IMG/VR virus record: IMGVR_UViG_3300031803_000001
Span: 1 to 48,660 of that record
DNA: 48,660 bases
Strand: one strand, 5' to 3'
Origin: a virus
This document shows, piece after piece, positions 17,752 through 36,740 of this stretch. The position numbers and the translations under genes were made by a program. The notes beneath the pieces were generated by a model. It saw only the letters and a list, made by a program, of their open reading frames with translations. It had not been told where the DNA came from and searched no databases. Position 1 is the first letter of the stretch; each line of letters begins with the position of its first letter.

Positions 17752-17955
17752 GGGGAATTATTTTTGGATTTTTTAAAATTGGTCTCGCAGAGGGCCTCCC
17801 CTGTCGCATCTGCCAGCATAGTAGCCCACAAACGACCGGTGAAGGGTTGATGTGGCGGAGACCCAGGAGGGACCCGTCTGCGGCATTTGGGGGTGGGGGT
17901 TCATGCAACTTATTTGTGGATTGGCCCGCTGGCCGAATGGAAAGATTTATAAGGT

Positions 17956-18001
17956 GGTTTTAAAGAGACTCCTTTTAGGGGGTTTTAAAGAGACTCCTTT
18001 T
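17956..18001. repeat. Two 21-bp direct repeats, 25-bp period
   Basis: GGTTTTAAAGAGACTCCTTT begins at 17956 and again at 17981, identical over 21 bases (17956-17976 and 17981-18001). The pair lies beside the A/T-rich stretch, and may be a binding-site pair for a replication or transcription factor. Confidence 0.85.
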
Positions 18002-18002
18002 T

Positions 18003-18080
18003 ATAAACCTCTTTTTCTATAAAATGAAAAATTAATTTATAAATGGGTATTTAGGGATTTTAAAAAAAATTTTTTTTAGC
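18003..18080. other. A/T-rich segment with A8T8 tract, candidate unwinding element
   Basis: Nearly all A/T from 18003 to 18080, including eight A followed by eight T (18062-18077), which gives intrinsic curvature and easy melting. It lies immediately left of the repeat array. Such a pairing is characteristic of the DNA unwinding element of plasmid and phage origins; activity is inferred. Confidence 0.5.
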
Positions 18081-18100
18081 TTACCTAGGGGGCGGAAAAA

Positions 18101-18217
18101 TGTCATGACATAAATGTGTCACACCATAAATGTGTCACACCATAAATGTGTCAGGCCATAAAAATGTCAGGCCATGAATCTGACATGACAGGTTTATGAC
18201 ATGACAGGTTTATGACA
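18101..18217. repeat. 16-bp-periodic iteron array in two orientations
   Basis: TGTCA or TGACA occurs at 18101, 18117, 18133, 18149, 18165, 18181, 18197 and 18213, exactly 16 bp apart. The underlying 13-bp unit CATAAATGTGTCA is direct at 18109, 18125, 18141 and (variant) 18157, then appears inverted as TGACAGGTTTATG at 18186 and 18202. Cores switch from TGTCA to TGACA at the middle, so the array is four direct plus two inverted iterons. The strict spacing of about 1.5 helical turns suggests ordered protein binding. Confidence 0.9.
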
Positions 18218-18218
18218 A

Positions 18219-18246
18219 CCAATTTTATGTCATGACATAAAATTGG
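18219..18246. repeat. Perfect 28-bp palindrome
   Basis: Bases 18219-18246 are self-complementary without interruption, centred between 18232 and 18233, with core TGTCATGACA. The same 10-bp palindrome also opens the iteron array at 18101-18110. It looks like a high-affinity site for the dimeric form of whatever binds the array. Confidence 0.92.
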
Positions 18247-18257
18247 ATGGTGAACAT

Positions 18258-18308
18258 GCGACTAGTGAACAAATCCCCACTATGCTATACACGCGACTAG
18301 TGGACAAA
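18258..18308. repeat. Two 16-bp repeats containing ACTAGT
   Basis: GCGACTAGTGAACAAA (18258-18273) and GCGACTAGTGGACAAA (18293-18308) differ at one base and lie 35 bp apart, downstream of the palindrome. The palindromic ACTAGT centre suggests another dimer site. Confidence 0.85.
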
Positions 18309-18339
18309 CGCTCAAAAATAAATTGGCTTTTTTGTGTCC

Positions 18340-18600
18340 ACGGGCTTGACCGATGGCCGATACTATGGTCTACTGCCTCTGTAGTCGATCACAGCCCATA
18401 CCGCTGGTCAAACGTTGGCCAGCCGAAGAGCCGAAAGGCGGGCTAGATAATAGATCGGCCGTAGGTACATTGCTCCAACCTAGCCATCCAAGGCTACCCC
18501 CTATAGCACGGGGGCTTGCATGAGCAACGTATGCGGGTTCATACCGCCGCCTATGTCGGGAACACCGGGTTCCCGGTTCGCATGACTGCCATTCGTTTTT
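18340..18600 (+). other. GC-rich structured leader, candidate noncoding RNA
   Basis: This stretch is much richer in G+C than the surrounding genes and contains several local hairpins: GCC-GAAA-GGC near 18430 (a GNRA-type tetraloop), CCCCC/GGGGG at 18496-18513 closing an 8-base loop, GCGG/CCGC around 18533-18548, and CCGGG/CCCGG near 18565. No open frame of note runs along the plus strand. It ends in an eight-T run (about 18596-18603) just before the ribosome site of the first early gene. It could be a structured 5' leader, an antiterminator, or a replication RNA. Confidence 0.4.
18346..18374 (+). promoter_or_regulatory. Possible early rightward promoter
   Basis: TTGACC (18346-18351), a 17-bp spacer and TCTACT (18369-18374; four of six consensus bases). 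It is the best plus-strand candidate before the first early gene but the -10 is weak, so an activator may be needed. Confidence 0.35.
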
Positions 18601-18619
18601 TTTATAAGGAAAAGACAAA

Positions 18620-19306
18620 ATGGCAACCGTACCCTATCTAGCTACCCTCGACGGTAGCACAATGTTATTTAAGAACGAGCGGGAATTTACTCGTTTATGT
18701 GCCGCGAATTTTCTTGCGGCGGAAAACGTTGGCATTCAGACCCTGGCGCAGATAACCCGCAAAAATGGGCGGGCTGTAATCATCAGGATCGACAATACCG
18801 AACTATCGGAGCAACCTGTGCACTGGTTTCGCGAACAGGCCGATTTATACTTTGGGATATCGAACAAAAAAAAGGGCCCAAAAAGGAAGGCTTTAGTTTT
18901 TCTTCGCAATGGTATCCCGGTCTATTTTGGAAATCAGCTTAGGTTTGGCGAAGTCTGTACGTACGTGGCTGGAATGCAGCACGTTGAGTCTATCACGTAT
19001 TCCGCGGTTGAGCGTTATTGCCAAGCGCTGGCCACGAATGATGACGGTAGTCTTAAAACTACCCCATTAGATGGATGGGACAAGCAAGCCTACGCGGCAA
19101 CCTGGAAGAGACTGACTAATTGCGATTTATCTATCCACGCATTGGTCCCTGACCTGGTCGACAAAATCGAAACGGAGCATTTTGAAGCAATCGATGAAGA
19201 GGAGGAAGAGGCAACCGACGAAGTAGATGAGGAGGTGATCGACGAATCTGAACAACTGGCGGAGCTGGTAACAGAGCAGCTAATGGCCGCGAACGCTAAC
19301 ACATAA
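18620..19306 (+). CDS. First rightward gene, acidic-tailed hypothetical protein
   Basis: A 228-residue protein beginning MATVPYLATL with AAGGA upstream. Residues 1-165 look like a compact alpha/beta domain with a basic patch (SNKKKGPKRKA, about 81-91); the last ~65 residues are extremely acidic (runs of E/D around 187-210), which would form a flexible, DNA-mimic-like or protein-binding tail. I recognise no family. As the first gene beside the iteron array it is a positional candidate for the array-binding initiator or regulator. Codon use is more GC-rich than in the late genes. Confidence 0.6.
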   Translation: MATVPYLATLDGSTMLFKNEREFTRLCAANFLAAENVGIQTLAQITRKNGRAVIIRIDNTELSEQPVHWFREQADLYFGISNKKKGPKRKALVFLRNGIPVYFGNQLRFGEVCTYVAGMQHVESITYSAVERYCQALATNDDGSLKTTPLDGWDKQAYAATWKRLTNCDLSIHALVPDLVDKIETEHFEAIDEEEEEATDEVDEEVIDESEQLAELVTEQLMAANANT

Positions 19307-19375
19307 TTCTAGAATGGGGCAGTCATGCGAATCGGTAACCTGGAAATTATTTTTTTGAATTTCTTGGTTTCACGG

Positions 19376-19404
19376 TTGACAGGCAATTTGATATGGTGTA
19401 TTTT
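19376..19404 (+). promoter_or_regulatory. Sigma70-like promoter, first of a duplicated promoter-leader
   Basis: TTGACA (19376-19381), 17-bp spacer, TATTTT (19399-19404). It is followed by a 36-base leader that recurs 327 bp downstream. It drives the small gene at 19448. Confidence 0.7.
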
Positions 19405-19405
19405 A

Positions 19406-19441
19406 CACGTATCACTTTTACTGTTTCAAATTTTACAAGGG
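19406..19441 (+). repeat. 36-bp leader repeat, copy 1 (copy 2 at 19733-19768)
   Basis: The two copies match at 35 of 36 bases and each ends at the ribosome site (ACAAGGG) of a small gene. Weaker similarity continues upstream through the promoter boxes at the same 327-bp offset, so the unit duplicated was a promoter plus leader, giving two small genes common control. Confidence 0.88.
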
Positions 19442-19447
19442 GAAAAA

Positions 19448-19687
19448 ATGAGCAAGCTAACGCCTGTTTTTAGGCACTCTCAGCTGCTGATGAATCGAAT
19501 TGTCAAACTACAACCCATGCAAACGAGCCGAGCCTATTACCGGATCGACGATGAAATCCGAAAAATCAACAAACGGCTCGCCAAGATTCTGGTTAATATG
19601 GAACGGGACGGAAATAAGCTTTCTAGAAACTATCAACCTACAACTTTTTTCGGATACCGAGGAAACTACTCTCCCCCCATCAAATAA
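19448..19687 (+). CDS. Small basic protein, early
   Basis: Seventy-nine residues from the ATG at 19448, which follows AAGGGG; a longer frame from 19325 would run through the promoter and leader. The protein is basic, with a helical centre (YRIDDEIRKINKRLAKILVNMER) and a polar Tyr/Pro-rich end. No known family. The same promoter-leader precedes the next gene, and their central helices share a faint pattern, so they may be diverged paralogs. Confidence 0.5.
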   Translation: MSKLTPVFRHSQLLMNRIVKLQPMQTSRAYYRIDDEIRKINKRLAKILVNMERDGNKLSRNYQPTTFFGYRGNYSPPIK

Positions 19688-19702
19688 ATCTTGGTTTTGC
19701 CC

Positions 19703-19731
19703 TTGCAAGGCAATCCGCTATAGTCTATCGT
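19703..19731 (+). promoter_or_regulatory. Second promoter of the duplicated promoter-leader
   Basis: By alignment with the first copy, the boxes are TTGCAA (19703-19708) and TATCGT (19726-19731) at 17 bp. A better -10, TATAGT, lies at 19719-19724, with TTTTGC 18 bp upstream. Both readings serve the gene at 19776. Confidence 0.5.
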
Positions 19732-19732
19732 G

Positions 19733-19768
19733 CACGTATCGCTTTTACTGTTTCAAATTTTACAAGGG
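19733..19768 (+). repeat. 36-bp leader repeat, copy 2
   Basis: Second copy of the leader at 19406-19441, differing at one base (G at 19741 for A at 19414). It precedes the ATG at 19776. Confidence 0.88.
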
Positions 19769-19775
19769 AAAACAA

Positions 19776-19979
19776 ATGAGTGGAAAGCTAAGAGCCCGCA
19801 TTCTAAAAGGTGAAGTATTACACAAACCGCACTCCAAGATCAGCTACACCCCCAATACGTCTGGCTTGTATGATTTTTACGAAGAGTTTAATAGACGGCT
19901 TGCCCGTACTGAATTTTACAAGGGCCAACTAGAAAGCGAGACAAGTGAGGAATGGGGTGAGATAATCTGGTTGACTTAG
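19776..19979 (+). CDS. Small hypothetical protein, early
   Basis: Sixty-seven residues from the ATG at 19776, preceded by AAGGGAAAA in the duplicated leader. The N-terminal third is basic (MSGKLRARILKGEV), the middle contains a helix (LYDFYEEFNRRLARTE), and the end is acidic. No family is recognised. The longer frame from 19500 overlaps the previous gene and is rejected. Confidence 0.5.
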   Translation: MSGKLRARILKGEVLHKPHSKISYTPNTSGLYDFYEEFNRRLARTEFYKGQLESETSEEWGEIIWLT

Positions 19980-20030
19980 TGATACCTAAAAGCCCCCCGG
20001 TCTGCCAAATGGTAGATTGGGGGGATTGGG

Positions 20031-20101
20031 TAAAATAGGTAAAATAGGTAATATAGGTAAAATAGATAATATAGGTAATATAGGTAATATAGGTAATATA
20101 G
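20031..20101. repeat. 9-bp tandem repeat, about eight copies
   Basis: Units TAAAATAGG or TAATATAGG run head to tail from 20031 to about 20101, with one TAAAATAGA variant. The alternation of two unit types suggests expansion by slippage. It leads into the poly-A tract. Confidence 0.9.
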
Positions 20102-20106
20102 CCACG

Positions 20107-20139
<33 letters not shown>

Positions 20140-20228
20140 TGTAAAATTTTTTCCCGGAAAGCCCCGGGAAACCGCGGAAGGACACCAGACACCAGAAAAC
20201 CACACAAGGCACCAGAAACCTATTTTTT

Positions 20229-20286
20229 TATTTAACCGGAAAAGGGCACCAGACAACCCTATTTAACCGGAAAAGGGCACCAGACA
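20229..20286. repeat. Two 27-bp direct repeats, 31-bp period
   Basis: The sequence opening TATTTAACCGGAAAAGGG and ending CACCAGACA occurs at 20229-20255 and 20260-20286, separated by four bases. Each copy carries GGCACCAGACA, a motif also found at 24034-24044. Confidence 0.88.
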
Positions 20287-20326
20287 GCATAAAACCACAC
20301 AAATAAACCATAATATAAAGACTCCC

Positions 20327-20356
20327 AAAAAGGCCAGTACTTAGACTGGCCTTTTT
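20327..20356. terminator. Bidirectional intrinsic terminator
   Basis: A perfect 12-bp stem (AAAAAGGCCAGT at 20327-20338 with its complement at 20345-20356) closes a six-base loop, with A5 on one side and T5 on the other, so it can stop RNA in both directions. It ends transcription from the duplicated-promoter genes. Confidence 0.85.
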
Positions 20357-20394
20357 CGTAGACTTTATCGGCACCACTGGAAAAGGAAAATACC

Positions 20395-20493
20395 ATGACA
20401 AAAGACCAGATTACTGAAGATTATGAAATCGATCTAAATAGTTTCTACGAAACCCTGGAAACCATCAATGAAACCAATGATTCAACCATATAA
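20395..20493 (+). CDS. Very small acidic protein
   Basis: A 32-residue frame (MTKDQITEDYEIDLN...) with AAAAGGA upstream and a clean stop. It is strongly acidic and helical in character, in the style of small phage inhibitors of host proteins. It lies just after the terminator. The short length makes it uncertain. Confidence 0.4.
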   Translation: MTKDQITEDYEIDLNSFYETLETINETNDSTI

Positions 20494-20671
20494 AACTGGT
20501 CATTTGGTGCCAGCCAAGTGTCGTGGGTGGTCAAAGTGTGGTGATTCTTTATGAGTTTCTTTCTTTACTCTAAAAAATCACTTCAATTTTTAATAGCATA
20601 CGCTTTGACCTATCCCAACACTTCGACTGGGCTTTCATCCTTATTTTATAGGGAATCTAAGCAATTTTACC

Positions 20672-20699
20672 TTGTATTTCCAATGGACTTGGCTATAAT
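20672..20699 (+). promoter_or_regulatory. Sigma70-like promoter with flanking inverted repeat
   Basis: TTGTAT (20672-20677), 16 bp, TATAAT (20694-20699). TGGACTTGG (20684-20692) and its complement CCAAGTCCA (20717-20725) bracket the -10 and start site, so the site may be an operator or the RNA may fold at its 5' end. It drives the genes from 20747. Confidence 0.7.
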
Positions 20700-20746
20700 T
20701 TCACATAGACACCAAACCAAGTCCAATTTCTAGCTAGGAAACACAA

Positions 20747-21121
20747 ATGGACAAGTACCAAATGCAGGAATTCCATCGTAAACGAATCAATTATCCTCCA
20801 GAACACCTAGAATTGGTAAAAACGCAGGCTATAACCTTAGAAAACCTCTGTAAAGATATCAACAGACTGTTTTCCGACTGTAAAAACGAGAAGGTTTACG
20901 TTACTGGAAAAAAACAACTCCAGAAAACCCTAGACCAACTCCATGCTTTACAAGCATACAATCAACGAAAAAATATCATAGATATCGAGCCATTTCAGGC
21001 CATAAAAAAATCTGTCCAAGCTTGTATTCTCTTTAGGGAAACCACGCTTGCCAAGCGATACGAGAAAGCGAAAAAAGCTGGGCAAGCATCTTTTTGGTGG
21101 CGTCAACGTAAACAAGGATAG
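20747..21121 (+). CDS. Helical basic protein, early
   Basis: A 124-residue Lys-rich protein, mostly helical, with likely coiled-coil stretches (about 28-70). The start at 20747 follows TAGGAAACACAA. No family or catalytic motif is recognised. It is the first gene after the promoter at 20.67 kb, with the two paralogous genes following closely. Confidence 0.5.
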   Translation: MDKYQMQEFHRKRINYPPEHLELVKTQAITLENLCKDINRLFSDCKNEKVYVTGKKQLQKTLDQLHALQAYNQRKNIIDIEPFQAIKKSVQACILFRETTLAKRYEKAKKAGQASFWWRQRKQG

Positions 21122-21130
21122 GGAGAAACC

Positions 21131-21406
21131 ATGACAACAGAAATCGAATATTTTGGCGGTAGCTTTTTCAGTATCGAAATTACCGTACCAGCAGATTTAA
21201 TGGGCCACCAGGGTAGTTGGGATGATGATGCAGAATTTTACGGTCCAGAATTGCAAAGATTAAACCCGGATGCGGATATGATAAAGATTCGAGTAGAACT
21301 AGCTGAACTAGGTCTGGATAAAAATTGGAACACAGCACCAGATGATATTGTTTGGCAATACGTTTCGTGGATTTTAGCTTTTGAGAGAAAGGACCGTAAA
21401 TCCTAA
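21131..21406 (+). CDS. Small early protein, paralog of the next gene
   Basis: Ninety-one acidic residues. ITVPADLMGH, GPELQRLNPDADM and WQYVSWILAFERK all recur in the next gene product, so the two arose by tandem duplication. This copy is shorter: it lacks two insertions found in the second. AGGGAGA precedes the start. Function is unknown. Confidence 0.55.
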   Translation: MTTEIEYFGGSFFSIEITVPADLMGHQGSWDDDAEFYGPELQRLNPDADMIKIRVELAELGLDKNWNTAPDDIVWQYVSWILAFERKDRKS

Positions 21407-21441
21407 TCCTACTACGCCACGAATATAGGAAAACAATTACC

Positions 21442-21894
21442 ATGGAAACAGAAATCGAAGTTTTTGGCTATAATGTGTTCCATAAGGATATTTTCAAGAT
21501 CGAAATTACCGTACCAGTAGATTTAATAGGGCACAAGGACGACTTTTTTGCAGGCTTTTATAACCAGGGTAGTTGGGATGCCGAAGCCAAAGTTTATGGT
21601 CCAGAATTGCAAAGATTAAACCCGAATGCGGATATGCTAATGATTAGAGGCCAACTGACCTACTTCTTTGATAAGAATCCATATCTGGATTTTTTCGAGA
21701 ACATCAAACAGTCCGAATGCGGCGTAGACCATAAAGATTGGAATACAGAACCAGATAATATTGTTTGGCAGTGCGTTTCGTGGATTTTAGCTTGTGAGAG
21801 AAAGGAACGAAAAGACCATGAAAAACTACTTCTCAAATATGAAAACTATAGAAAGGAACAAAGAGAAATAGATCGTGGGAAGAAACTAGGGTAG
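21442..21894 (+). CDS. Early protein, longer paralog of the preceding gene
   Basis: A 150-residue paralog of the upstream protein. Shared landmarks are ITVPVDLIGH, GPELQRLNPNADM, DWNTEPDNIVWQ and VSWILACERK. Relative to the shorter copy it has an insertion after the first landmark, another of about 15-20 residues in the middle (FFENIKQSECG), and a charged C-terminal extension. TAGGAAAAC lies upstream of the start. The conserved core is likely a small protein-binding domain; no family is recognised. Confidence 0.55.
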   Translation: METEIEVFGYNVFHKDIFKIEITVPVDLIGHKDDFFAGFYNQGSWDAEAKVYGPELQRLNPNADMLMIRGQLTYFFDKNPYLDFFENIKQSECGVDHKDWNTEPDNIVWQCVSWILACERKERKDHEKLLLKYENYRKEQREIDRGKKLG

Positions 21895-21926
21895 ATATTC
21901 CAGAAAGAAAGATAGAATTTATATCG

Positions 21927-21977
21927 AACGGTCTATTGCTACATCATGCCACGTTTTTCTTCCAGCAATAGACCGTT
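21927..21977. repeat. 14-bp inverted repeat with 23-base loop
   Basis: AACGGTCTATTGCT (21927-21940) pairs perfectly with 21964-21977. The loop includes ATGCCACG. No T-run follows directly, although the downstream sequence is T-rich. It sits between two early genes and resembles the long-loop hairpins at 20684, 25159 and 32372. Confidence 0.85.
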
Positions 21978-22024
21978 TATTATCGATTTTATTTTCCACT
22001 ACCATCTTTTTGAAAAGGAACCAT

Positions 22025-22414
22025 ATGGCCAAAACGCAACCCACTTGTCAAGAAAGAATAGACGACGAATTAGTATCTTCACTCGATGATCTCCGTCTAT
22101 TATGGGAAGCATTCCAGAAAGGCGAAGAATACGTAGACGATCTAGGCAGTTTTTTAGCGTACCACCTATCGTTCGATTATGTAGATTCCGACAATTACTG
22201 GCGCTACCAGATTAGTTGGGGTGGCCCCGCATCAGAGTACCGATTTTATTACAATTCAGAGGATCCAGAAAAAGACCGGATAACTCGGGTTGAATATTGG
22301 TTTTCGGATTGGTTTGATAGTGCGTGCCGTGTTATAACAGGAAAAGATAAAGAACTACTGCTAGAAGTGTTCAATTTCCACCGCTGTGGAAGGAGCTGGA
22401 AAAGAATGTATTGA
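22025..22414 (+). CDS. Small early protein with SWGGPASEYRF motif
   Basis: A 129-residue acidic protein from the ATG at 22025, which follows AAAAGGAACC; an upstream TTG at 22010 is less likely. The core YWRYQISWGGPASEYRFYY...RVEYWFSDWFDSACR resembles a family of small conserved proteins found on plasmids and phages whose function is not established to my knowledge. Trp and Tyr are abundant. A hairpin and possible promoter region follow. Confidence 0.55.
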   Translation: MAKTQPTCQERIDDELVSSLDDLRLLWEAFQKGEEYVDDLGSFLAYHLSFDYVDSDNYWRYQISWGGPASEYRFYYNSEDPEKDRITRVEYWFSDWFDSACRVITGKDKELLLEVFNFHRCGRSWKRMY

Positions 22415-22469
22415 CCTTGCCTGCAAATCGTCGTCGCCACGATAAATGAAAGAAAAAGAGTGTCCGACA

Positions 22470-22491
22470 GCAGACCAGTAGCATGGTCTGC
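22470..22491. repeat. 8-bp hairpin between early genes
   Basis: GCAGACCA (22470-22477) pairs with TGGTCTGC (22484-22491) around a six-base loop. There is no T-run, so it is more likely a leader element or processing site than a terminator. Confidence 0.7.
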
Positions 22492-22532
22492 AATCAGTTA
22501 CTCTATCTCCAGCGAAAGGAAACCAGAATTAC

Positions 22533-22844
22533 ATGCAGATTATAGAAACCCCTCATTTACAAAAAACTAAAGCACCAGTATGTTTCTCCGCGGGAGGCCA
22601 ACCATTATTAGACCTTATATTTCAGGAAGGGCGTATTCTCCAGGAAGCAATTGACAATAGCGATATGGATGTTATTTTATGTCCAACTTGTGAAAAACCC
22701 TATTTAATGCCTCATGAAAGTGTACTACGTAATCTAGAAGAGGCCTTACACGATCCCACTTGTAAAGAATGTTTTGAAAAGTGGACCCCTAAGAAATATT
22801 CCCGTATTTATAGATTTCAACACAAGAAAGCAAAGAACAAATGA
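22533..22844 (+). CDS. Small zinc-ribbon-like protein
   Basis: A 103-residue protein. CPTC near residue 49 and CKEC near residue 84 form a possible four-Cys zinc site, separated by a helical block. The C-terminal end is basic (KKYSRIYRFQHKKAKNK). The last ~25 bases of its coding region that encode PKKYSRI reappear, nearly unchanged, in the noncoding spacer at 25036-25060. The stop overlaps the next start by 4 bp (ATGA). Confidence 0.55.
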   Translation: MQIIETPHLQKTKAPVCFSAGGQPLLDLIFQEGRILQEAIDNSDMDVILCPTCEKPYLMPHESVLRNLEEALHDPTCKECFEKWTPKKYSRIYRFQHKKAKNK

Positions 22845-23227
22845 CTAATAGCCCATCCAAATATGCTGTTGAAGTAACGATTAAAACCAATCACGTACCA
22901 CGCGATATTTTGTATGTTTGGGATTTAACGATTCCTGAGTTAATCGAACTAGATTTAATTCGATCCGAAGAAGATTTGACTGAAAAAAGAAAGGAGGAAC
23001 TCTGCGACAAAACGGAAAATTACGTGCGTTTTAAAAGTTGGATATATCCATTACATGAGTTTACAAGCTGGGGTATTGGACCGTGGATATCACCACGACC
23101 AAATTGGGCGATAGACTGGGATGGTTATTTATCAGACAGTTTTTTCTCAGGAATAGTTATCAAGTATCTACCAGCTTCCCACGATAGATATGATGAAGCA
23201 GTAATTTGTGGAACATATTACACTTAG
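22841..23227 (+). CDS. Hypothetical early protein
   Basis: A 128-residue protein, Trp- and Tyr-rich, with no cysteine cluster or membrane segment. It is translationally coupled to the zinc-ribbon-like gene through ATGA. The next gene follows after 9 bp. No recognised family. Confidence 0.5.
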   Translation: MTNSPSKYAVEVTIKTNHVPRDILYVWDLTIPELIELDLIRSEEDLTEKRKEELCDKTENYVRFKSWIYPLHEFTSWGIGPWISPRPNWAIDWDGYLSDSFFSGIVIKYLPASHDRYDEAVICGTYYT

Positions 23228-23236
23228 GAAATAACC

Positions 23237-23626
23237 ATGACGAAAATTGGAATTGACAGCGTGAGTAAGTTAACCATAGACTTCATGTATACTGGAATGG
23301 TAGATTATTGGGGTGGGGATAGTGATCGTTGGAAAGATAATTGTGGCTGTGTGTTTGCATCAAATGATAACGAAACCACCCTAAGGGATTTAGAATCCCA
23401 AATTCTAGCCGAATTATTTGATATGGGAACTGATTTTGACCTAAAACCAGCTTTCGATGACATAACATCTAGCGATATCAAAGAAGCATACCAAAATGCT
23501 CTATCAACAGAAGGAAAAGATGCCTATAAACGCAATACTACCTGGGAAGGTTCCAGCCCGAATCCTAGAGACCTAGAAGAGGAGCCTCCAGTTGTCATCT
23601 TTTTGCTCAAAATAGAGACAGACTAA
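23237..23626 (+). CDS. Hypothetical acidic early protein
   Basis: A 129-residue acidic protein with a start nine bases after the preceding stop and TAGGAAATAACC upstream. It is mixed alpha/beta with DLESQILAELFDMG as a likely helix and ends in a short hydrophobic strand (VVIFLLKI). No motif is recognised. It may interact with the products of its two coupled neighbours. Confidence 0.48.
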   Translation: MTKIGIDSVSKLTIDFMYTGMVDYWGGDSDRWKDNCGCVFASNDNETTLRDLESQILAELFDMGTDFDLKPAFDDITSSDIKEAYQNALSTEGKDAYKRNTTWEGSSPNPRDLEEEPPVVIFLLKIETD

Positions 23627-23694
23627 ACCAAAAGGTATTTTTAATTGCCTAGGAGTTTTTTTCCAGCATTCAGCAACCTTAAGGACCTAAAACC

Positions 23695-24012
23695 ATGCCA
23701 CGACAAAAGAAAACAAAACGTCTATTTAGAAAATGTGATTGCAGATATTGTGCTTATAGTGTTTGTAAAGCATTAAATCGTTATCTTAGGCTAGTTTGCC
23801 CATTTATCGACTATCATTTAGGTGAAGTAGAGTTTTTTGTTGAATACGCTGTTTCCGGATCTGGCGAAGAGATGTACGGAATCATACTCAGCTATAAAAT
23901 GGATTGGTCACCTACTAATGAATTTATAAAGGCCGTCAGAGCTGAGATGCACTACCAGCTCTGTAAGCTAGATACAATTTCTGAAGAGCTAAGCCTGGCC
24001 GAGCTAATCTAG
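23695..24012 (+). CDS. Small Cys-containing basic protein
   Basis: A 105-residue protein beginning MPRQKKTKRLFRKCDCRYCAYSVC. The four N-terminal cysteines (residues ~14-24) could bind metal; the rest is a mixed fold with a helical C-terminus. TTAAGGACC lies upstream. No family is recognised. The ATGCCACGA start context recurs at other early gene boundaries. Confidence 0.5.
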   Translation: MPRQKKTKRLFRKCDCRYCAYSVCKALNRYLRLVCPFIDYHLGEVEFFVEYAVSGSGEEMYGIILSYKMDWSPTNEFIKAVRAEMHYQLCKLDTISEELSLAELI

Positions 24013-24047
24013 CTCCCCCTTCCACGGCAAAATGGCACCAGACAAGC

Positions 24048-24079
24048 CCCACGCAAGGGCTAGCTAGCCCTTGCGTGGG
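24048..24079. repeat. 32-bp perfect palindrome
   Basis: Bases 24048-24079 are exactly self-complementary, centred on GCTAGC, with GC-rich arms. A transcript would form a very stable hairpin, yet no T-run follows. Candidates are a bidirectional pause/processing site, a dimer-binding site, or a recombination hotspot. Confidence 0.92.
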
Positions 24080-24109
24080 CCTAACAGGAATAATAATCGC
24101 CAGACTACC

Positions 24110-24145
24110 AAGAGTGCCCTCAGGGACTGACCTGAGGTCACTCTT
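24110..24145. repeat. 15-bp hairpin with one mismatch
   Basis: AAGAGTGCCCTCAGG (24110-24124) pairs with 24131-24145, one mismatch and a six-base loop. It follows the 32-bp palindrome by about 30 bp; the two may act together in ending upstream transcription, although T-runs lie only near 24228. Confidence 0.8.
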
Positions 24146-24251
24146 GTTGGCCTCTCCGCTCCCCCTGAATCGGAGCAAGTGCACCAGACAAATTTGCTGT
24201 CGTTCGATTTATCTACAGCCGAAGAATTTTTTTCTTTTTTTGGGAAAGGAC

Positions 24252-24279
24252 TTGCCTATTCGAGATTTCGTGCAATAAT
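24252..24279 (+). promoter_or_regulatory. Sigma70-like promoter
   Basis: TTGCCT (24252-24257), 16 bp, AATAAT (24274-24279). It points to the gene at 24367 with a leader of about 80 bases. Confidence 0.5.
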
Positions 24280-24366
24280 ACAAGTATAAAGAAAGGAGAC
24301 CTGGCCAGCCGATCTTTATTATAAAACTTAACAGGCCAATCAATTTTACTACGAGGAATACTAAAC

Positions 24367-25005
24367 ATGCCGACTGCACAAGATCGACCAGAAACGCTAA
24401 CAACGGGACAAGTAGAAACTTTAGAAACAGTGAGTGATAATGGCGAGATTGAATCTGTGGAAACAGTGACCAAAATTGTTAAACGGGGAAGGGGAGCCGC
24501 ACCAACAGTAAACTATAAGAGTTTCTTTCCAACAGAAAAAGATTGTGACGAGAATTCTCCCTGCAATAGCGATGGTAAAATTGCCGAACAATATCGAACT
24601 TATAAGATTGAAATTTTACCACCAATAGACGCGAACAAAAATGTTTTGCCAAATGAAGATATTTACATTGACAAAAATACGGTTACTTTTGTTGCTGCAA
24701 GAAATGCAGATCAAGCTTGTGCGTTCTTTAGCGAAACACTAAGGATTAGTGCAGGAGTAGCTTCCACTAAATCGGGTGGACGCAAGAAGAGAATAGAATT
24801 GATGATGTTGCAGTTTTTGGTCCGAATGCATACACTTAATTTACCAAAAGACCAGATTGAAGCTTTTTATACGGCCGACGGAGGGAAATGCGAACATTAC
24901 CGAACGATTGATCTTTCAAAGATCAAAGATGGAGTAGAAAACGCTGAGCAGAACGAAATTTTCTGTAATGAACTTGCCGAAATTCATTGCCCAGTAAAAG
25001 CCTAA
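24367..25005 (+). CDS. Hypothetical early protein, 212 residues
   Basis: The first ~50 residues are Thr/Glu-rich and probably disordered; a basic patch (KIVKRGRGAAP) follows, then a folded domain with scattered cysteines. A basic helix near residue 137-150 (STKSGGRKKRIELMML) is a possible nucleic-acid contact. GAGGAATACTAAAC lies upstream of the ATG. It has its own promoter and is followed by a long gene-free spacer, so it may be a highly expressed single-gene unit. No family is recognised. Confidence 0.55.
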   Translation: MPTAQDRPETLTTGQVETLETVSDNGEIESVETVTKIVKRGRGAAPTVNYKSFFPTEKDCDENSPCNSDGKIAEQYRTYKIEILPPIDANKNVLPNEDIYIDKNTVTFVAARNADQACAFFSETLRISAGVASTKSGGRKKRIELMMLQFLVRMHTLNLPKDQIEAFYTADGGKCEHYRTIDLSKIKDGVENAEQNEIFCNELAEIHCPVKA

Positions 25006-25247
25006 GAAAAGGTCGACCGGGAGACCATACAGAAAACCCCTAAGAAATATCCCCGTATTTCTTTCTGGAAAACTTTGTCGTGCTTTACGAAGTATTGCAC
25101 CATAATGGCAAATTAGAACCAGGGTTTAGTATGGTCTTCTAGTTGGTCTTTTCCTTGGAGCTATCCTGGTTAGGTAGATAGTTAATGACGTTTTCATATT
25201 TATCTTCCAGGATAGCTTTTATTCTTCAGTAGTAAAAGGATTTATTC
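25006..25247. other. Spacer assembled from duplicated gene fragments
   Basis: No gene is supported in these 242 bases. 25036-25060 matches 24 of 25 bases of the end of the zinc-ribbon-like gene (22785-22809). 25066-25088 is identical to 25508-25530 and 25092-25108 is identical to 25494-25510, both inside the next gene but in swapped order. It looks like the debris of local duplications. A hairpin at 25159-25217 ends it. Confidence 0.8.
25159..25217. repeat. 11-bp inverted repeat with 37-base loop
   Basis: AGCTATCCTGG (25159-25169) pairs with CCAGGATAGCT (25207-25217), followed by TTTTATTCTT. It could be a weak terminator or attenuator just before the gene at 25248. Confidence 0.8.
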
Positions 25248-25868
25248 ATGCCACAAGATATAAAACCAGTTGCTAAAGTCTGTAATAACCAAGAAACTTT
25301 TGATAAATGCATTAATCATCTAAGACAACAAAAAATAAAAGCTGTTTTCCTCCATGAAGGCCACATTACTGGGGCATATAAAAAAGTAAAAGACGGTAGA
25401 GGACCAGTAGGGTTTTTATTAGGTGATTTAGCAGTTGGATTAATGGAGGGAAAGACCGTCGATCATCCAGATATGTTTTTCATTATGGAAAGTGTATTGC
25501 ACCATAATGGAAAACTTTGTCGTGCTTTACAAAAAATTCATGATGAAGTAGATCCAGATTGGTGGGAAAATGAATTTCAAATATTGGCAATGACCTGGAA
25601 ACTAGTTTATCATATTACTCCAGAACTACGGGAACAACTAGAACCAAAAGAAGTAGTTGATAAATTAATGGGCTACCTTATTCAAGGTTTGTTTGTTAGT
25701 TGGGATAGAGTAAATGAATTAGAACTTCGTTCTGTTCAACCAAGACCAGTCAAAATCATGCAGAGTCAAATAGGCAATACTTCTCAAATATGCAGTAGGA
25801 GCAAGCAACTAGTTGTAGATGGCCTAAAAAATCGGTTTGGCAAACCAGAATGTACTTTTCCTTATTAG
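25248..25868 (+). CDS. Hypothetical early protein, 206 residues
   Basis: A mixed helical protein with His/Trp-rich segments (HHNGKLCRALQKIHDEVDP, then WWENEFQILAMTWKLVYHI). No catalytic motif, signal or membrane segment is certain. Part of its coding sequence is duplicated in the spacer just upstream. Its start has the ATGCCACAAGAT context shared with the nuclease gene at 29535. TAAAAGGA lies upstream. Confidence 0.55.
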   Translation: MPQDIKPVAKVCNNQETFDKCINHLRQQKIKAVFLHEGHITGAYKKVKDGRGPVGFLLGDLAVGLMEGKTVDHPDMFFIMESVLHHNGKLCRALQKIHDEVDPDWWENEFQILAMTWKLVYHITPELREQLEPKEVVDKLMGYLIQGLFVSWDRVNELELRSVQPRPVKIMQSQIGNTSQICSRSKQLVVDGLKNRFGKPECTFPY

Positions 25869-25886
25869 TACGGGAGCACTAAGATT

Positions 25887-26264
25887 ATGTTGAAAGAAAA
25901 AGAGTCAAAAGTAAGCATGTCACATTTTTGTCCCCCAGGTAACTTTCCCGAATATGCACTAGGAAAGAAATTACTGTCTATAAGAACTGAACCTGTGTGG
26001 AGGATAACCTGGCAAGAACCCACTTCAGTAATGAACATGGTTTTTGGGGATTTTTCCTTTCCGGGTAGGATTATATTTCAAAGAAAGAAGACATTCTCGA
26101 CTACTAACTACGATGAACTTATTAGTAAATTAGATGAATTGCAGGATCTTCAAGATTGTAGTAAACCATCAATGAAACCCATTCTACTAGGGGTTGAAAA
26201 AACTATAATCGAAAAAGGTACATATACTAATGCTGACCTAAATTCTAACGCTCCATTTGGTTAA
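25887..26264 (+). CDS. Hypothetical early protein
   Basis: A 125-residue basic/hydrophobic mixed protein, 18 bp after the preceding stop, with GGGAGCAC upstream. Contains SFPGRIIFQRKK and a helical TNYDELISKLDELQDLQD. No recognised family. Confidence 0.48.
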   Translation: MLKEKESKVSMSHFCPPGNFPEYALGKKLLSIRTEPVWRITWQEPTSVMNMVFGDFSFPGRIIFQRKKTFSTTNYDELISKLDELQDLQDCSKPSMKPILLGVEKTIIEKGTYTNADLNSNAPFG

Positions 26265-26332
26265 ACCATTCGTGTAGCTTCGTGCGGTACAATGCCGAAC
26301 AGTTTATTCACCACACCAGGGAATATTCTATT

Positions 26333-26641
26333 ATGAAGAGTCATGCCACTAATAATTTGAAAGGATTCGCAATGCTAGATATACATCCAAATGAACCTAC
26401 TAGGGAGTTTCGTCTACAGGGGACCGTAAAAGATTATTTCCATGAAACCTACAAACCATATAAACTTCATGTTTATGGTCCAATAGACAACGGTTTTGGG
26501 AAAGTCAAGGAAATAAAAGTCCAACAGACTATAGATGTTCTAGATTTACTCGATTTAATTTCAGGAACTGATGACTATTGGCTAGTAAAAATAATCGATT
26601 ACTACGGGACGTTTAAATGCATTGAAAAAGGAGCTAAGTAA
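26333..26641 (+). CDS. Hypothetical early protein
   Basis: About 102 residues from the ATG at 26333 (AGGGA ten bases upstream). An internal ATG at 26372 has a better-placed AAAGGA and may be the real start, giving 89 residues; an upstream GTG at 26282 is unlikely. The core contains EFRLQGTVKDYFHETYKPYKLHVYG and a leucine-rich helix (IDVLDLLDLI). No family is recognised. Confidence 0.45.
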   Translation: MKSHATNNLKGFAMLDIHPNEPTREFRLQGTVKDYFHETYKPYKLHVYGPIDNGFGKVKEIKVQQTIDVLDLLDLISGTDDYWLVKIIDYYGTFKCIEKGAK

Positions 26642-26724
26642 TTCATGCCACGAAAAAAGCAGTTTTTAAAAGTATGAAAAAGAAAGCGAAATACAATCCG
26701 TCAAAAATCTTTCGATTTTATCTC

Positions 26725-26752
26725 TTGACTTTTTCGATTTCAGGTATATAAT
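26725..26752 (+). promoter_or_regulatory. Strong sigma70-like promoter of the replication arm
   Basis: TTGACT (26725-26730), 16 bp, TATAAT (26747-26752): eleven of twelve consensus bases. It is the best promoter in the window, and transcribes the helicase and probably much of the following replication operon. Confidence 0.82.
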
Positions 26753-26787
26753 ATCCCTGAGACTTGAGAAAAACTTTTTATAGATTC

Positions 26788-26835
26788 ATGCCACAACAAA
26801 TTCGATCTATCCCGTACAGTCAAGTCAGTCTGTAG
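26788..26835 (+). CDS. Possible 15-residue leader peptide before the helicase
   Basis: ATG at 26788 opens MPQQIRSIPYSQVSL and a stop at 26833-26835, within the leader of the predicted transcript. It starts with the ATGCCACAA phrase seen at other early starts. No strong ribosome site precedes it. It may be a translational control element or chance. Confidence 0.25.
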   Translation: MPQQIRSIPYSQVSL

Positions 26836-26902
26836 TATGCAGTGGCATGAGTACTATATGACTGGCTTGGCTTTTTTAGTCTCTAGGCAGATTGGATATT
26901 TT

Positions 26903-28525
26903 ATGATAAAGTTTTACAAGAAAGTAAACTGTCCTGAATGCTCTGCTTCTGTTAATACCATAAACGGAGAGCGCTACCCAGTTATAGGTCATATCAATGG
27001 TTGTTCGTTAGCTGGTCAAAAAGTCGAAACAAAAGGGCGTATTGACAGCCTCTACGATTCGACTATAGATAGTGGAGGGATTTACCCTGACGGCACCAGA
27101 ATACCTTATAGGTATCAGACAAAAGGAATTGAATTTGCTAAAGGAAAAGATTCTTTTGCACTATTCTGGCAAATGAGACTTGGCAAAACTCTTACGACAA
27201 TTAAAATCGGTAAAGAAAAAAATTGGGAAAAGGTACTAATAGTTTGCCCTAAATCAGTTATTAACACCTGGATGAGAGAGCTTAAGCTGGAAAAACAGGC
27301 TGTACTTCGACTAACTACCGTAAGTCTTAAACACACAGCAGTTAAAAGGTCTCTTAAGTTCATGCCGGGGTGGTTTGTCACCAATTATGAAACACTTATA
27401 AAAGAAAACTTAGCTGAATTAGCTGACTGGGATGCACTGATTTTAGATGAATCCGAAAAGATAAAAGACCCAACAACCAAAATTAGTAGGGAATTAGCTG
27501 GAGGTTACTTCAAAAAAATAATTGAACAACCCGATAGAGATGACAAAGAAGTTAAAATTTATCGGGATCGATGGAGAAAAGTAAAAAATAAAGTTTGTTT
27601 AACAGGTACACCAGCACCAGAAAATTTATTAAACTATTTCCAGCAACTCAAATTTCTATTCGGTAGTTTTGCTGGAACAGATAATTACCAAACATTCAAA
27701 TCTAAATACTTCACAATGATTGGGCCAAATAAATTTACAGTATCCCCGCATGTATCCCAGTTTTTATCAGCTACATTGGCTGAATATTGTTTTGTTCTTC
27801 AAAGGGATCAAGTAGGAATTGGTTCAACTAAGGTATTTGAAGAACGAGAAACTGAACTATCTTCAGAATACCGTGAAGTTTACGATAGTTTTGAAAGAGA
27901 TTGGATAACTGAAAATGGTGAACTAAGTGTTTTATGTGCTATTGCAGCATATACCCATCTACATCAACTATCTGGAGGTTACCACCATAAAATGGTCAAA
28001 AAAGGGATTACTAGTCCCCATAAACTCAATGAACTAAAGCAAATCCTAAAGAATGATCTTCGAGGTGAACGAGTATTAATCTGGTTTCGCTTTAAAGAGG
28101 AAATAAAGCAAGTTACTAAGGTATTACCAGTAGATTCATGGGCAATATGGTCTGGAGATACCAAAACTGATCAGCGTTTAGACCTGGAAGAACAATTTGC
28201 ATGGAGAAACCGTTCTAAGCCATTAAATGGTAAAGTAAGAAAACAGTACCTTTTATGCCAGATAAAATCTGCTTGTCATGGACTAGACTTTGCAGGAGCT
28301 GATCAATCTATCTACTTCAGTAATGAACCTGGTTCTAAATGGCGACAACAGTCAGAAGATAGGTTAATTCATCCTGAAAAAGAAGTACCACTACTTTATA
28401 TTGATCTAGTAGCTGAGAATACTATCTGCCCATCTATTCTTGCGGCTTTAAAAGGTAAAATAGAAGATCAACAGACGTTTTTAATGAAAATTCATGAAGA
28501 TATGAAAGAAAGGCACGGAGTATGA
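26903..28525 (+). CDS. SNF2/DEAD-like superfamily 2 helicase
   Basis: A 540-residue helicase from ATG 26903 (an upstream ATG at 26837 is possible). The N-terminal CPEC and HINGC residues may bind zinc. The helicase core is typical SNF2: motif I FWQMRLGKT, motif II LILDESEKIKD, motif III CLTGTPAPENL, and the C-lobe with CHGLDFAGADQSIYFS and a motif VI-like RQQSEDRLIHP. Such phage proteins remodel or unwind DNA during replication or recombination. It lies directly after the strongest promoter and begins the replication operon. Its stop overlaps the next start. Confidence 0.85.
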   Translation: MIKFYKKVNCPECSASVNTINGERYPVIGHINGCSLAGQKVETKGRIDSLYDSTIDSGGIYPDGTRIPYRYQTKGIEFAKGKDSFALFWQMRLGKTLTTIKIGKEKNWEKVLIVCPKSVINTWMRELKLEKQAVLRLTTVSLKHTAVKRSLKFMPGWFVTNYETLIKENLAELADWDALILDESEKIKDPTTKISRELAGGYFKKIIEQPDRDDKEVKIYRDRWRKVKNKVCLTGTPAPENLLNYFQQLKFLFGSFAGTDNYQTFKSKYFTMIGPNKFTVSPHVSQFLSATLAEYCFVLQRDQVGIGSTKVFEERETELSSEYREVYDSFERDWITENGELSVLCAIAAYTHLHQLSGGYHHKMVKKGITSPHKLNELKQILKNDLRGERVLIWFRFKEEIKQVTKVLPVDSWAIWSGDTKTDQRLDLEEQFAWRNRSKPLNGKVRKQYLLCQIKSACHGLDFAGADQSIYFSNEPGSKWRQQSEDRLIHPEKEVPLLYIDLVAENTICPSILAALKGKIEDQQTFLMKIHEDMKERHGV

Positions 28526-28761
28526 AAGGATTCTTAGCTGAACAACAGCCAAGAGCTAAAAGTATTGGCGAATACTCAGATTTGAAAGTAATGCGTTCCT
28601 CTGCTGGGTACTACATAGGCACTCTATTTACTCACAGCAATAAAAGTAGTTCTCCAGGACTGGAAGAACCAGGTACACGAGAATCTCAGTATTTTCCAAC
28701 TGAAGTACATGCACTACAAGCATTAATTGACGATAATTGGCAACAAAGGCTAGAACCATAA
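28522..28761 (+). CDS. Small hypothetical protein, helicase-coupled
   Basis: Seventy-nine residues, starting inside the helicase stop (ATGA overlap). The middle SSAGYYIGTLFTHSNKSS and the end AEVHALQALIDDNWQQ-like pattern suggest a small beta/alpha fold common in phage accessory proteins. Function unknown; coupling suggests it acts with the helicase. Confidence 0.45.
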   Translation: MKGFLAEQQPRAKSIGEYSDLKVMRSSAGYYIGTLFTHSNKSSSPGLEEPGTRESQYFPTEVHALQALIDDNWQQRLEP

Positions 28762-28762
28762 G

Positions 28763-29263
28763 ATGACTAGAATAAACCTTCCCCCTATTCCAGAAAATGC
28801 TTTCATTACCTGTGATCCTGGTAGTGGGGGGACTGGTTTAGCTTTATTTTTTCCAGAACATCCATTTCCTATGGATACTAAAGTAATTAAATGCCCAATA
28901 AATGATTGGGAAATAAAACAAAGAATGATTTTATCAACCACTGATGCATATTTAGTTGATATGTATGAAAGAGGTTGTAGAAAACTATTTATCGAATTAC
29001 CACAGTATATGAACTCTGTAAAAGGAGAGATAGCTGCTAAATCTAATGCGTTAGGTAAGTTACTAATGGTATATGGAGGGATTAAAGCTAATGCAGAATT
29101 GCGCGGGTATACTACAAAACCAATCATTATAGGTCATTGGAAAGGTCAATTAGACAAACATAAAGTAAATATTAGGATAAAGAAAATCATTGGTGCTGAA
29201 TTTGAAGATCATATTGCCGATGCAGTTGGAATGGGTCTGTATCTAAAAGGAAAATTCAAATGA
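28763..29263 (+). CDS. RuvC-like Holliday junction resolvase
   Basis: A 166-residue protein of the RNase H-like RuvC class. Acidic residues sit where expected: Asp18 in ITCDPGSGGTG, Glu78 in LFIELPQY, and Asp149/Asp153 in EDHIADAVGMG at the C-terminus. Such nucleases resolve four-way junctions so concatemers can be packaged. It lies between the helicase group and the nuclease/ATPase genes. The residue set strongly supports the fold; substrate is by family. Confidence 0.78.
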   Translation: MTRINLPPIPENAFITCDPGSGGTGLALFFPEHPFPMDTKVIKCPINDWEIKQRMILSTTDAYLVDMYERGCRKLFIELPQYMNSVKGEIAAKSNALGKLLMVYGGIKANAELRGYTTKPIIIGHWKGQLDKHKVNIRIKKIIGAEFEDHIADAVGMGLYLKGKFK

Positions 29264-29523
29264 GGAATATGAAAGAACTACAAATTGGTAAGGAAGATAT
29301 CTGGGATGGTTTCATTTACATCTATCTTTGGGACGATGGAAAACTAGGCATGAGTTATACAGGACCATATGCAGGAGATTTAGCAAGTATAGAAGAAGGA
29401 TTCTTAACTGTATTTGAATGTCAAGACTGTTCTATGGTTAGACTACTAGATTGTGAAGGAAATGGAACTAGATTAGCTTTTGCTAAAAAATATGCTGGAA
29501 ATGTAAGGTATCATCATATATAA
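29260..29523 (+). CDS. Small hypothetical protein
   Basis: An 87-residue acidic, Gly/Tyr-rich protein coupled to the resolvase gene by a 4-bp overlap, with AAAGGAAAA upstream. A CQDCSM pair is present. No family is recognised. Confidence 0.45.
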   Translation: MRNMKELQIGKEDIWDGFIYIYLWDDGKLGMSYTGPYAGDLASIEEGFLTVFECQDCSMVRLLDCEGNGTRLAFAKKYAGNVRYHHI

Positions 29524-29534
29524 GAGAGATCACC

Positions 29535-30584
29535 ATGCCACAAGACTTCTACAAAATAGAGACTCTACCTCTTAATAAAAAAGTAGAAAACCAACACTCT
29601 GTTTGGAACTACTATCGCGATGGAGTATCTCAATCATTCTCTAAAAAATTTAGAGAATGTAAACTCCAAACTAAACTTGAGTATGTAGACGGCTGGACCA
29701 ATAAATATGACAAAATTTGGTTCCGCTATGGAAAGCTAGTTCATTACCTGCTAGAACAGCAGTATCTAGGTTTCAATATCGATAGTGAAGAAACTGCATT
29801 TAGTATGGCAACAACATTTGCTAATAAATACAGATGGTTTCTTCCGCAATTACCAGAAATAATTAAAGAAGAAAATACTTTTCTTGTAGCTTTAGCTGCC
29901 CATATTCTTCCAGTATACGTTAAATGGAGCATTATGGACGTTAAACTAACGAAAACTCTTGCTGTTGAAAAAGAGTACCGTATGCCATGCCAAGATACCT
30001 TTGCTAGAGGAATAGTCGATAGAGTTTACCGGGATATGAACGGTTTACTTTGTTTAAAAGACTATAAAACAACAGCTAGAGTAATACGAGAAGCTGAATT
30101 TTACGAGACATATAAATTAGATACTCAAACTTACTTATACTACCTCTTAGTTTTTAATGAATTCCAGGAAATGCCCCATAAAATGGAATTTGAGTTTATT
30201 AGAACGCCTAAACATACTCTAGATCGAAAAAAAGATAACGTTTCATTTGAGGATTTCTTGAGCAAAGCTTGTGCTGACTTCGATCAAAGTCCGTCAAAAT
30301 ACCTAGGAAAAATAGAAATAAAACTAACAGCTAGTGAACTAACAAAATGGTATAATGAGCAATGGCTAGGCATTATAGACGAGATTAAATACTGGTGGGA
30401 TGGGGGATGTAAACCATACCCATATAACGAACAGTCATTAAGGACGTCTTATAATAGTCGTTGCGAGATGTTTTATTTTATTACTGAAGGAAGAGAAGAT
30501 AATTTATATAAACGAACCACTGCATTCACACAATACAAGGATGCCAACAATGACAAAAACTTGGTTACCGACTTCGATATCTGA
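29535..30584 (+). CDS. PD-(D/E)XK nuclease (RecB/Cas4-like)
   Basis: A 349-residue nuclease. His70 in GKLVHYLLE and the core GIVDRVYRDMNGLLCLKDYKTT supply the motif residues (Asp162, Asp176, Lys178) of RecB-like PD-(D/E)XK nucleases. In phages these proteins partner with single-strand annealing or RecA-like proteins in recombination-dependent replication. The next gene starts inside its 3' end (44-bp overlap) and encodes a RecA-like ATPase, fitting that pairing. Confidence 0.8.
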   Translation: MPQDFYKIETLPLNKKVENQHSVWNYYRDGVSQSFSKKFRECKLQTKLEYVDGWTNKYDKIWFRYGKLVHYLLEQQYLGFNIDSEETAFSMATTFANKYRWFLPQLPEIIKEENTFLVALAAHILPVYVKWSIMDVKLTKTLAVEKEYRMPCQDTFARGIVDRVYRDMNGLLCLKDYKTTARVIREAEFYETYKLDTQTYLYYLLVFNEFQEMPHKMEFEFIRTPKHTLDRKKDNVSFEDFLSKACADFDQSPSKYLGKIEIKLTASELTKWYNEQWLGIIDEIKYWWDGGCKPYPYNEQSLRTSYNSRCEMFYFITEGREDNLYKRTTAFTQYKDANNDKNLVTDFDI

Positions 30585-31320
30585 GGCCCATATTGATGAC
30601 AATAGATTTAGCATACTTCTTTATGGACAAGATAAAGTTGGAAAATCTAAATTTTGTTCCAGTATACCAAATCATTTGATTATAGCTTGCCGTATGGGCA
30701 ACATAGATCATATTGATTCTAAAAGAGTATACATTGGTGGTGAAGAAGATATGGAAAATCCAAAAGGTTTAGAGAACTTTATAGAAATTTTAAATCAAGT
30801 TCAATCTACTCCAGATTGTTGCGATACTTTAATTATAGATGATGCAGATAGACTTTATGAGCATTGTGTAAGGCATTACGCTGTCAATAGATTCAAAATT
30901 AAAGAGCATGAACTGCCTTCAAGGATAGTTTGGTATACTGTTCGGAATAAAATGACTCAAATAATGGGTTTACTAAAAAGTTTACCCTGTGGCCTAGTCT
31001 TTACTTTTAATGAGGAATTAGAATCAATTGACGATATATCAACTGAAATTACTAGAAGAAACATAACAGCATCACCACAGTACAAAACGATTCTAAGAGG
31101 ACAGTTTTTAATGCGAATGTATATGGACATTGGCAATTCTGGCGATAGACGGTTAACCATAGAAGGGAGTAGAGGACTAGCAGCTGGAAACGGGTACGAC
31201 AAGAATTTCTTATATGAAGGGAAAAAACTAAAACGTTTCTCCATCGGAAACGATGGAAACCATGGCTGGACAATGTTTAAAATGGCTTTTAACAACCAAC
31301 TAAAGGGAGAAGTAATATGA
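30541..31320 (+). CDS. RecA-like/Sak4-type phage ATPase
   Basis: A 259-residue single-domain ATPase: Walker A GQDKVGKS at 29-36 and Walker B DTLIIDDADRL around 95-105. The size and layout fit the Sak4/phage nucleotide-binding family (AAA_24-like), which promotes annealing or strand exchange together with a single-strand-binding protein. Met4 is a possible alternate start. It is flanked by a nuclease upstream and a likely DNA-binding partner downstream. Confidence 0.75.
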   Translation: MPTMTKTWLPTSISEAHIDDNRFSILLYGQDKVGKSKFCSSIPNHLIIACRMGNIDHIDSKRVYIGGEEDMENPKGLENFIEILNQVQSTPDCCDTLIIDDADRLYEHCVRHYAVNRFKIKEHELPSRIVWYTVRNKMTQIMGLLKSLPCGLVFTFNEELESIDDISTEITRRNITASPQYKTILRGQFLMRMYMDIGNSGDRRLTIEGSRGLAAGNGYDKNFLYEGKKLKRFSIGNDGNHGWTMFKMAFNNQLKGEVI

Positions 31321-32342: not shown

Positions 32343-32371
32343 CCACGTTAGGAAATTAAAGTTGTCCCAAA

Positions 32372-32425
32372 CTAATAGGGGCTAGTAGTTAAAGTAAACT
32401 ATCTAGTCCCCTATTAGATTTTTTT
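32372..32425 (+). terminator. Intrinsic terminator/attenuator before the polymerase gene
   Basis: CTAATAGGGG (32372-32381) pairs with CCCCTATTAG (32408-32417) over a 26-base loop; a seven-T run (32419-32425) follows. It lies just before the polymerase ribosome site, so it could both end the upstream operon and, if read through, limit polymerase expression. Confidence 0.75.
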
Positions 32426-32435
32426 AAGAGATATT

Positions 32436-34226: not shown

Positions 34227-34232
34227 GCAATT

Positions 34233-34655
34233 ATGGACTCAAAAATGAAACCTCTGCCTTTTATGCTCTTAGAGCTAAATAAGCACTTTACATTCCGAAA
34301 AATTACGGTAGTTTATAAAAAGACTGGTTACCATTCATATAGTAAAGCAAAAGATACATCAGAAAATCCTATTGAAACCATTATATCATCAATGGAGAAA
34401 GTAATTTATCCATATGAGTATGTAAATGTAGCTGATTTAATTAAGCCTAGACCTAATGTCATAGAAGAAAATTTAATTGCCTTTCTTTTACTAGAATACG
34501 GGGTTAAATTCAAGTTTCCTCATACAAATACACTATACACTAAAAAGAGCTACTTAACGTATACAGGTGAATTACCCATTAGAGGCAATAAAACACGAAT
34601 GATCGAGTTTACTTGTGCAGATATTACAGGATTAATGGAAAGAATATACGAGTAA
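34233..34655 (+). CDS. Hypothetical protein between polymerase and primase
   Basis: A 140-residue mixed alpha/beta protein, six bases after the polymerase stop. No motif is recognised. Its position between two replisome genes suggests a replication accessory function. Confidence 0.48.
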   Translation: MDSKMKPLPFMLLELNKHFTFRKITVVYKKTGYHSYSKAKDTSENPIETIISSMEKVIYPYEYVNVADLIKPRPNVIEENLIAFLLLEYGVKFKFPHTNTLYTKKSYLTYTGELPIRGNKTRMIEFTCADITGLMERIYE

Positions 34656-34679
34656 ACCATGTAAAGGACTAGATCGACC

Positions 34680-36734: not shown

Positions 36735-36740
36735 GTAATC

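Follow-up and report, generated by a model that had tools for sequence, protein, structure and literature searches.

The window analyzed here, 48,660 nucleotides in length, is the entire record of an uncultivated phage (IMG/VR IMGVR_UViG_3300031803_000001). The two ends of the record (1-189 and 48472-48660) overlap by 189 bp with one mismatch and a sister contig spans their junction, so that the map is circular and complete at 48,471 bp. The gene content is that of a tailed phage: terminase, portal, capsid and tape-measure genes occupy a single long arm running leftward, and the rightward arm carries a replication module encoding an SNF2 helicase, a resolvase, a Cas4-like nuclease, Sak4, PolA and a primase/AAA+ protein. 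The arms are divergent, as a preliminary description of this DNA had held, and between the first gene of each sits an array of TGTCA/TGACA pentamers, adjoined on its left by an AT-rich segment and followed on its right by a potentially structured stretch (Table 1).

Table 1. Features of the junction between the arms and candidate array-binding proteins
Feature	Position	Strand	Description
AT-rich low-stability segment, candidate unwinding element	17940-18085		two 25-bp direct repeats (17952-18001); A8T8 palindrome (18061-18078)
Direct block, five 16-bp units	18101-18180	+	TGTCATGACATAAATG, TGTCACACCATAAATG (twice), TGTCAGGCCATAAAAA, TGTCAGGCCATGAATC
Inverted block	18181-18217	-	TGACATGACAGGTTTA twice plus a half unit; core-to-core distance alternates between 5 and 11 bp
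Perfect 28-bp palindrome with TGTCATGACA core	18219-18246		CCAATTTTATGTCATGACATAAAATTGG
Candidate structured RNA or leader, between array and first early gene	18341-18480	+	identified by folding z in a genome scan
228-residue orphan protein with acidic tail, first early gene	18620-19306	+	no Pfam, PHROG or PDB relative; model pLDDT 39
Candidate initiator	34680-36734	+	DnaG-type primase (CHC2 zinc ribbon and Toprim), MCM-like AAA+ module, C-terminal winged helix (residues about 595-684)

Anatomy of the array and its flanks

The eight cores on which the preliminary description was built are all present, namely TGTCA at 18101, 18117, 18133, 18149 and 18165, and TGACA at 18181, 18197 and 18213, with a spacing of exactly 16 bp; five more at 18106, 18186, 18202, 18228 and 18233 bring the total to 13 in 137 bp. 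By comparison, the maximum per 146 bp in 40 genomes simulated with a third-order Markov model was two or three. The flip in orientation within the array holds: the direct units, of the type TGTCACACCATAAATG, are five of 16 bp (the fifth degenerate), and the inverted ones are two and a half. While the spacer letters diverge from unit to unit, the cores are identical throughout. The closing palindrome, with the same core word, is indeed perfect, and only one other perfect palindrome in the genome is longer; TGTCATGACA occurs in the genome at the array alone. In being composed of directly repeated short sites with regular spacing, the array has the form of an iteron origin.

The A/T-rich segment with an A8T8 tract was likewise found beside the array (TAAAAAAAATTTTTTTTA at 18061-18078). 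Within it, the 60-bp window at 18018-18077 is the second least stable in the genome and stops 24 bp short of the array on its left side, so that, as far as predicted stability goes, an AT-rich element adjoins the repeats in the manner of iteron origins. On the right, the segment at 18341-18480 (56% G+C) has on the + strand the strongest fold in a 706-window RNA folding scan of the genome run with a reduced number of shuffles (z -6.3 on the + strand, -1.65 on the - strand); folded alone against 200 shuffles it gives a z of -4.45. It has no match in Rfam, and a covariance search of the relatives found none either. The promoter scan yielded no convincing promoter overlapping the array and fewer sites than in shuffled sequences.

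The array is, in our view, new in sequence but ordinary in kind. A search of viral contigs for exact TTTATGTCATGACATAAA returned none besides the sister contig, BLASTN of the array region found no match in phages, and its single match among plasmids, 59 bp of AT-rich sequence, is a chance one. Matches of Rfam microRNA models over the array score far under the gathering score and are chance matches to inverted repeats. No DnaA box with at most one mismatch lies near the array, and a literature text search turned up no regulator relevant to TGTCATGACA. Another 29 viral contigs carry four TGTCA cores at 16-bp spacing; these are not homologues, since their spacers are different, many have a period of 8 bp and nothing links them to this phage. 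As a separate observation, three unrelated viral contigs (L041:5146-5615, L043:1946-2319 and L020:1-287) bear tandem 16-bp units of the form TGTCA-N6-(C/T)GACA, i.e., the same pentamer in a different type of array.

Length variation, relatives and strand composition

Over 14.6 kb, the window and the sister contig, which comes from another sample, agree without a single substitution. The only differences are 32 extra bases in the sister contig's array, amounting to exactly two identical 16-bp units, and a change of three bases within a poly-A tract. Array length appears to vary within the population, an assembly error being the other possibility. Elsewhere in the early region, a 27-base A tract, the length of which differs in the sister contig, lies among repeats at 20029-20290; further on, a perfect 32-bp palindrome (24048-24079, within 24034-24191) is flanked by two copies of CACCAGACAA, which is also present near 20.2 kb.

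Scans with single proteins recovered only two sister contigs as relatives. Profiles of PolA and then of the primase/AAA+ protein reached at least about 40 distant contigs at 22-32% identity, in which the gene order from the SNF2 helicase through the resolvase, Cas4-like nuclease, Sak4 and PolA to the primase/AAA+ gene is kept. The array is absent from all 39 distant-relative records searched, each of which has the primase/AAA+ protein. Comparably dense intergenic repeats, as delimited by simple ORF calls, occur in two of the 20 contigs examined whole or nearly whole, with sequences unlike those of the array and unlike each other. In one distant relative, G028, eight CTACGTTC-type motifs form an array and CAATCGATTTT recurs every ~25 bp in arrays of its own, all of them intergenic (L207:15314-15700 and L208:9260-9440). 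A scan of genome contigs gave weak matches to the Toprim region only and no host.

GC skew gives a divided answer at 18 kb: the raw skew does change sign there, but that at fourfold-degenerate sites does not flip, with C>G and A>T on the + strand on both sides (bootstrapped intervals). Since the fourfold sites do not follow it, the raw change tracks coding content, and we rejected it as evidence for an origin. The neutral skew, if related to replication at all, suggests a single direction round the circle and not two forks departing from 18 kb. The missing flip counts against a bidirectional origin only, as unidirectional or rolling-circle origins do not require one. In terms of coding strands, that of the rightward arm (17900-37100) is C-rich at fourfold-degenerate sites, opposite to that of the leftward arm; the sense on the + strand is equal in both.

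Candidate binding proteins

The adjacent 228-residue protein with the acidic tail had been nominated as the binder of the array. We found for it no family match and no distant homologue, and its AlphaFold model (pLDDT 39) is too poor to be usable, which leaves the nomination unsupported. A better candidate is the product of 34680-36734; of the proteins scanned, it alone carries a DNA-binding domain that could be recognised. By profile, the N-terminal half of this product is a DnaG-type primase. A model built with 32 relatives (mean pLDDT 88, pTM 0.60) aligns over residues about 280-615 to MCM helicases (top chain Z 19.9, 290 residues, rmsd 4.3), and all 50 of the fold matches listed for the AAA+ half are MCM proteins. 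At the C-terminus, the family profile matches winged-helix regulators (2d1h, E 1e-5). Thus, an MCM-like AAA+ module, by fold similarity of the predicted model, and a C-terminal DNA-binding domain, by both profile and model, are shared with the Rep/Cch-like helicases; iterons beside the helicase gene are not, the array being ~16 kb away. SaPI Rep and Cch themselves are absent among the sequence and fold matches listed, an absence that excludes nothing.

Within the replication module, no DnaA-, O- or RepA-like initiator and no DnaB-type helicase was detected. We consider it possible but doubtful that the 34680-36734 protein in particular is the initiator, a weaker claim than that of an origin at the array. 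Independently of that role, the fusion of a DnaG-type primase, an MCM-like AAA+ module and a C-terminal winged helix is found in at least about 40 uncultivated phage contigs (this protein and its relatives L133-L170), and a narrow literature search found no prior description of it.

A candidate iteron origin, its rivals and known systems

Taken together, the repeats, the AT-rich flank, the divergent position, the variation in copy number and the initiator-like protein leave the earlier proposal of an iteron-type phage origin as the most likely reading, against which the neutral skew and the distant relatives tell. We accordingly offer it tentatively, as the best single explanation but with a probability somewhat below even, that the array supplies the replication origin of the phage with its iteron block. 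To elaborate, in its favor are: (i) the 13 cores, most in an exact 16-bp register and gathered at a single place in the genome; (ii) the adjoining low-stability segment with direct repeats; (iii) the location where, in a complete circular genome, the only replication arm and the structural arm diverge; (iv) the gain of exactly two units in a sister contig otherwise free of substitutions over 14.6 kb; and (v) a module lacking any detected initiator or helicase of the usual kinds that does encode a well-modeled, MCM-like protein with a predicted C-terminal winged helix, SaPI Rep and Cch2 likewise using C-terminal domains to read their iterons. Against it stand the fourfold-site skew, which supplies no neutral signature of a bidirectional origin; the absence of the array from about 40 relatives sharing the primase/AAA+ protein, along with the scarcity of dense intergenic repeats among them (two of 20 contigs); the 16 kb separating array and candidate initiator gene, whereas SaPI origins adjoin rep; the 16-bp period, which at 1.5 helical turns is unusual in iterons; and a second AT-rich repeat region at 20.03-20.29 kb.

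Briefly, we envisage the following mechanism for such an origin. An initiator, for which the C-terminal winged helix of the 34680-36734 product is the most likely candidate, would bind the TGTCA pentamers cooperatively and melt the AT-rich segment at 17940-18085. It would then load its own AAA+ ring, with the DnaG-type domain priming synthesis. Because the array sits between the leftward and rightward arms, its occupancy would probably influence the flanking promoters too; the switch between early and late transcription suggested in the preliminary description is possible.

A strong rival, ranking close behind the origin reading and itself a serious possibility, is that the array is purely an operator: a phage-encoded regulator, perhaps a small protein of the ribbon-helix-helix or helix-turn-helix type that escaped detection, would coat the pentamers and switch the leftward and rightward promoters with no role in replication. 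The placement exactly between the divergent arms, the structured leader on the rightward side and the presence of both core orientations with a palindrome, which suit a dimeric regulator, are all in keeping with this. However, no regulator with a DNA-binding fold emerged among the scanned proteins (most of which are orphans), no convincing overlap of a promoter with the array was found, and the cores have not spread to other operons. The origin and operator readings are, in any case, mutually compatible.

It is improbable that the origin lies instead at 20.03-20.29 kb, working through 9-bp AT-rich and CACCAGA repeats and leaving the 18-kb array some other role. In its favor, no 60-bp segment of the genome is less stable than 20040-20099, and eight of the AT-rich repeats and five CACCAGA copies lie in that region; yet copies of the latter type recur at 24036 and 24182 between other early genes and so look like distributed operators, and the AT-rich repeats amount to simple sequence that includes a long A tract. 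Still less probable is a non-functional tandem repeat growing and shrinking by slippage: near-identical contigs differing by two units speak for it, but an orientation switch that conserves core and register, spacers that diverge around identical cores, and a palindrome carrying the same core speak against it. The least probable of all is a partition site, i.e., a parS/parC-like array serving a plasmid-like prophage state, of which short repeats in both orientations are typical (e.g., the pSM19035 heptads; PMC9499535), since family scans of the annotated arms, in which many orphans remain, detected no ParA, ParM, TubZ or integrase/repressor genes.

Returning to the origin reading, a wider proposal, which we rate as unlikely, is that throughout a broad lineage of uncultivated tailed phages a single polypeptide combining a DnaG-type primase, an MCM-like helicase and a winged helix recognizes, melts, unwinds and primes the origin, here at a pentamer iteron array that also governs both arms. 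Were the origin reading right, it would furnish a testable pair of origin and initiator for a large, unstudied group of phages whose replication module is conserved. Beyond the staphylococcal islands, MCM-like helicases that load themselves and read iterons would then be at work in whole phages as well, in a form fused to a bacterial-type primase.

Among known systems, the iteron origins of plasmids such as RK2, P1, F and R6K similarly have tandem short repeats adjoining an AT-rich unwinding element; unlike their 17-22 bp iterons, the phage array has 5-bp cores at a 16-bp period (1.5 turns) and flips its orientation (PMC4980987). No Rep_3/TrfA-type gene was detected in the phage. The omega/parS system of pSM19035 uses 7-bp repeats with a ParA partner. 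Its heptads are comparable as short repeats able to act as both centromere and operator (PMC9499535); in contrast, ParA was not detected in the phage. SaPI Rep and the SCCmec-encoded Cch and Cch2 offer a further parallel, as self-loading mobile-element helicases with a C-terminal DNA-binding domain and origins of short iterons: SaPI Rep recognizes its iterons through that domain and Cch2 uses its own to bind 5-nt AAGTG iterons; Cch, moreover, is MCM-like (PMC7581432). They differ from the phage system in its N-terminal DnaG-type primase, the array lying 16 kb off, and the 13 cores in two orientations with a palindrome; we take the resemblance as an analogy of working and not as membership. Finally, the origin of the PLE satellite is unlike the array in having three semi-palindromic repeats, each about 30 bp long, and an initiator of the RepA_N family, for which no match was found in the phage. 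Nevertheless, it too has non-coding, intergenic iterons with inverted sub-repeats, and natural PLE variants show a duplication inside the iterons together with a polyA change, much like the sister contig of this phage (PMC7145576, PMC8263062).
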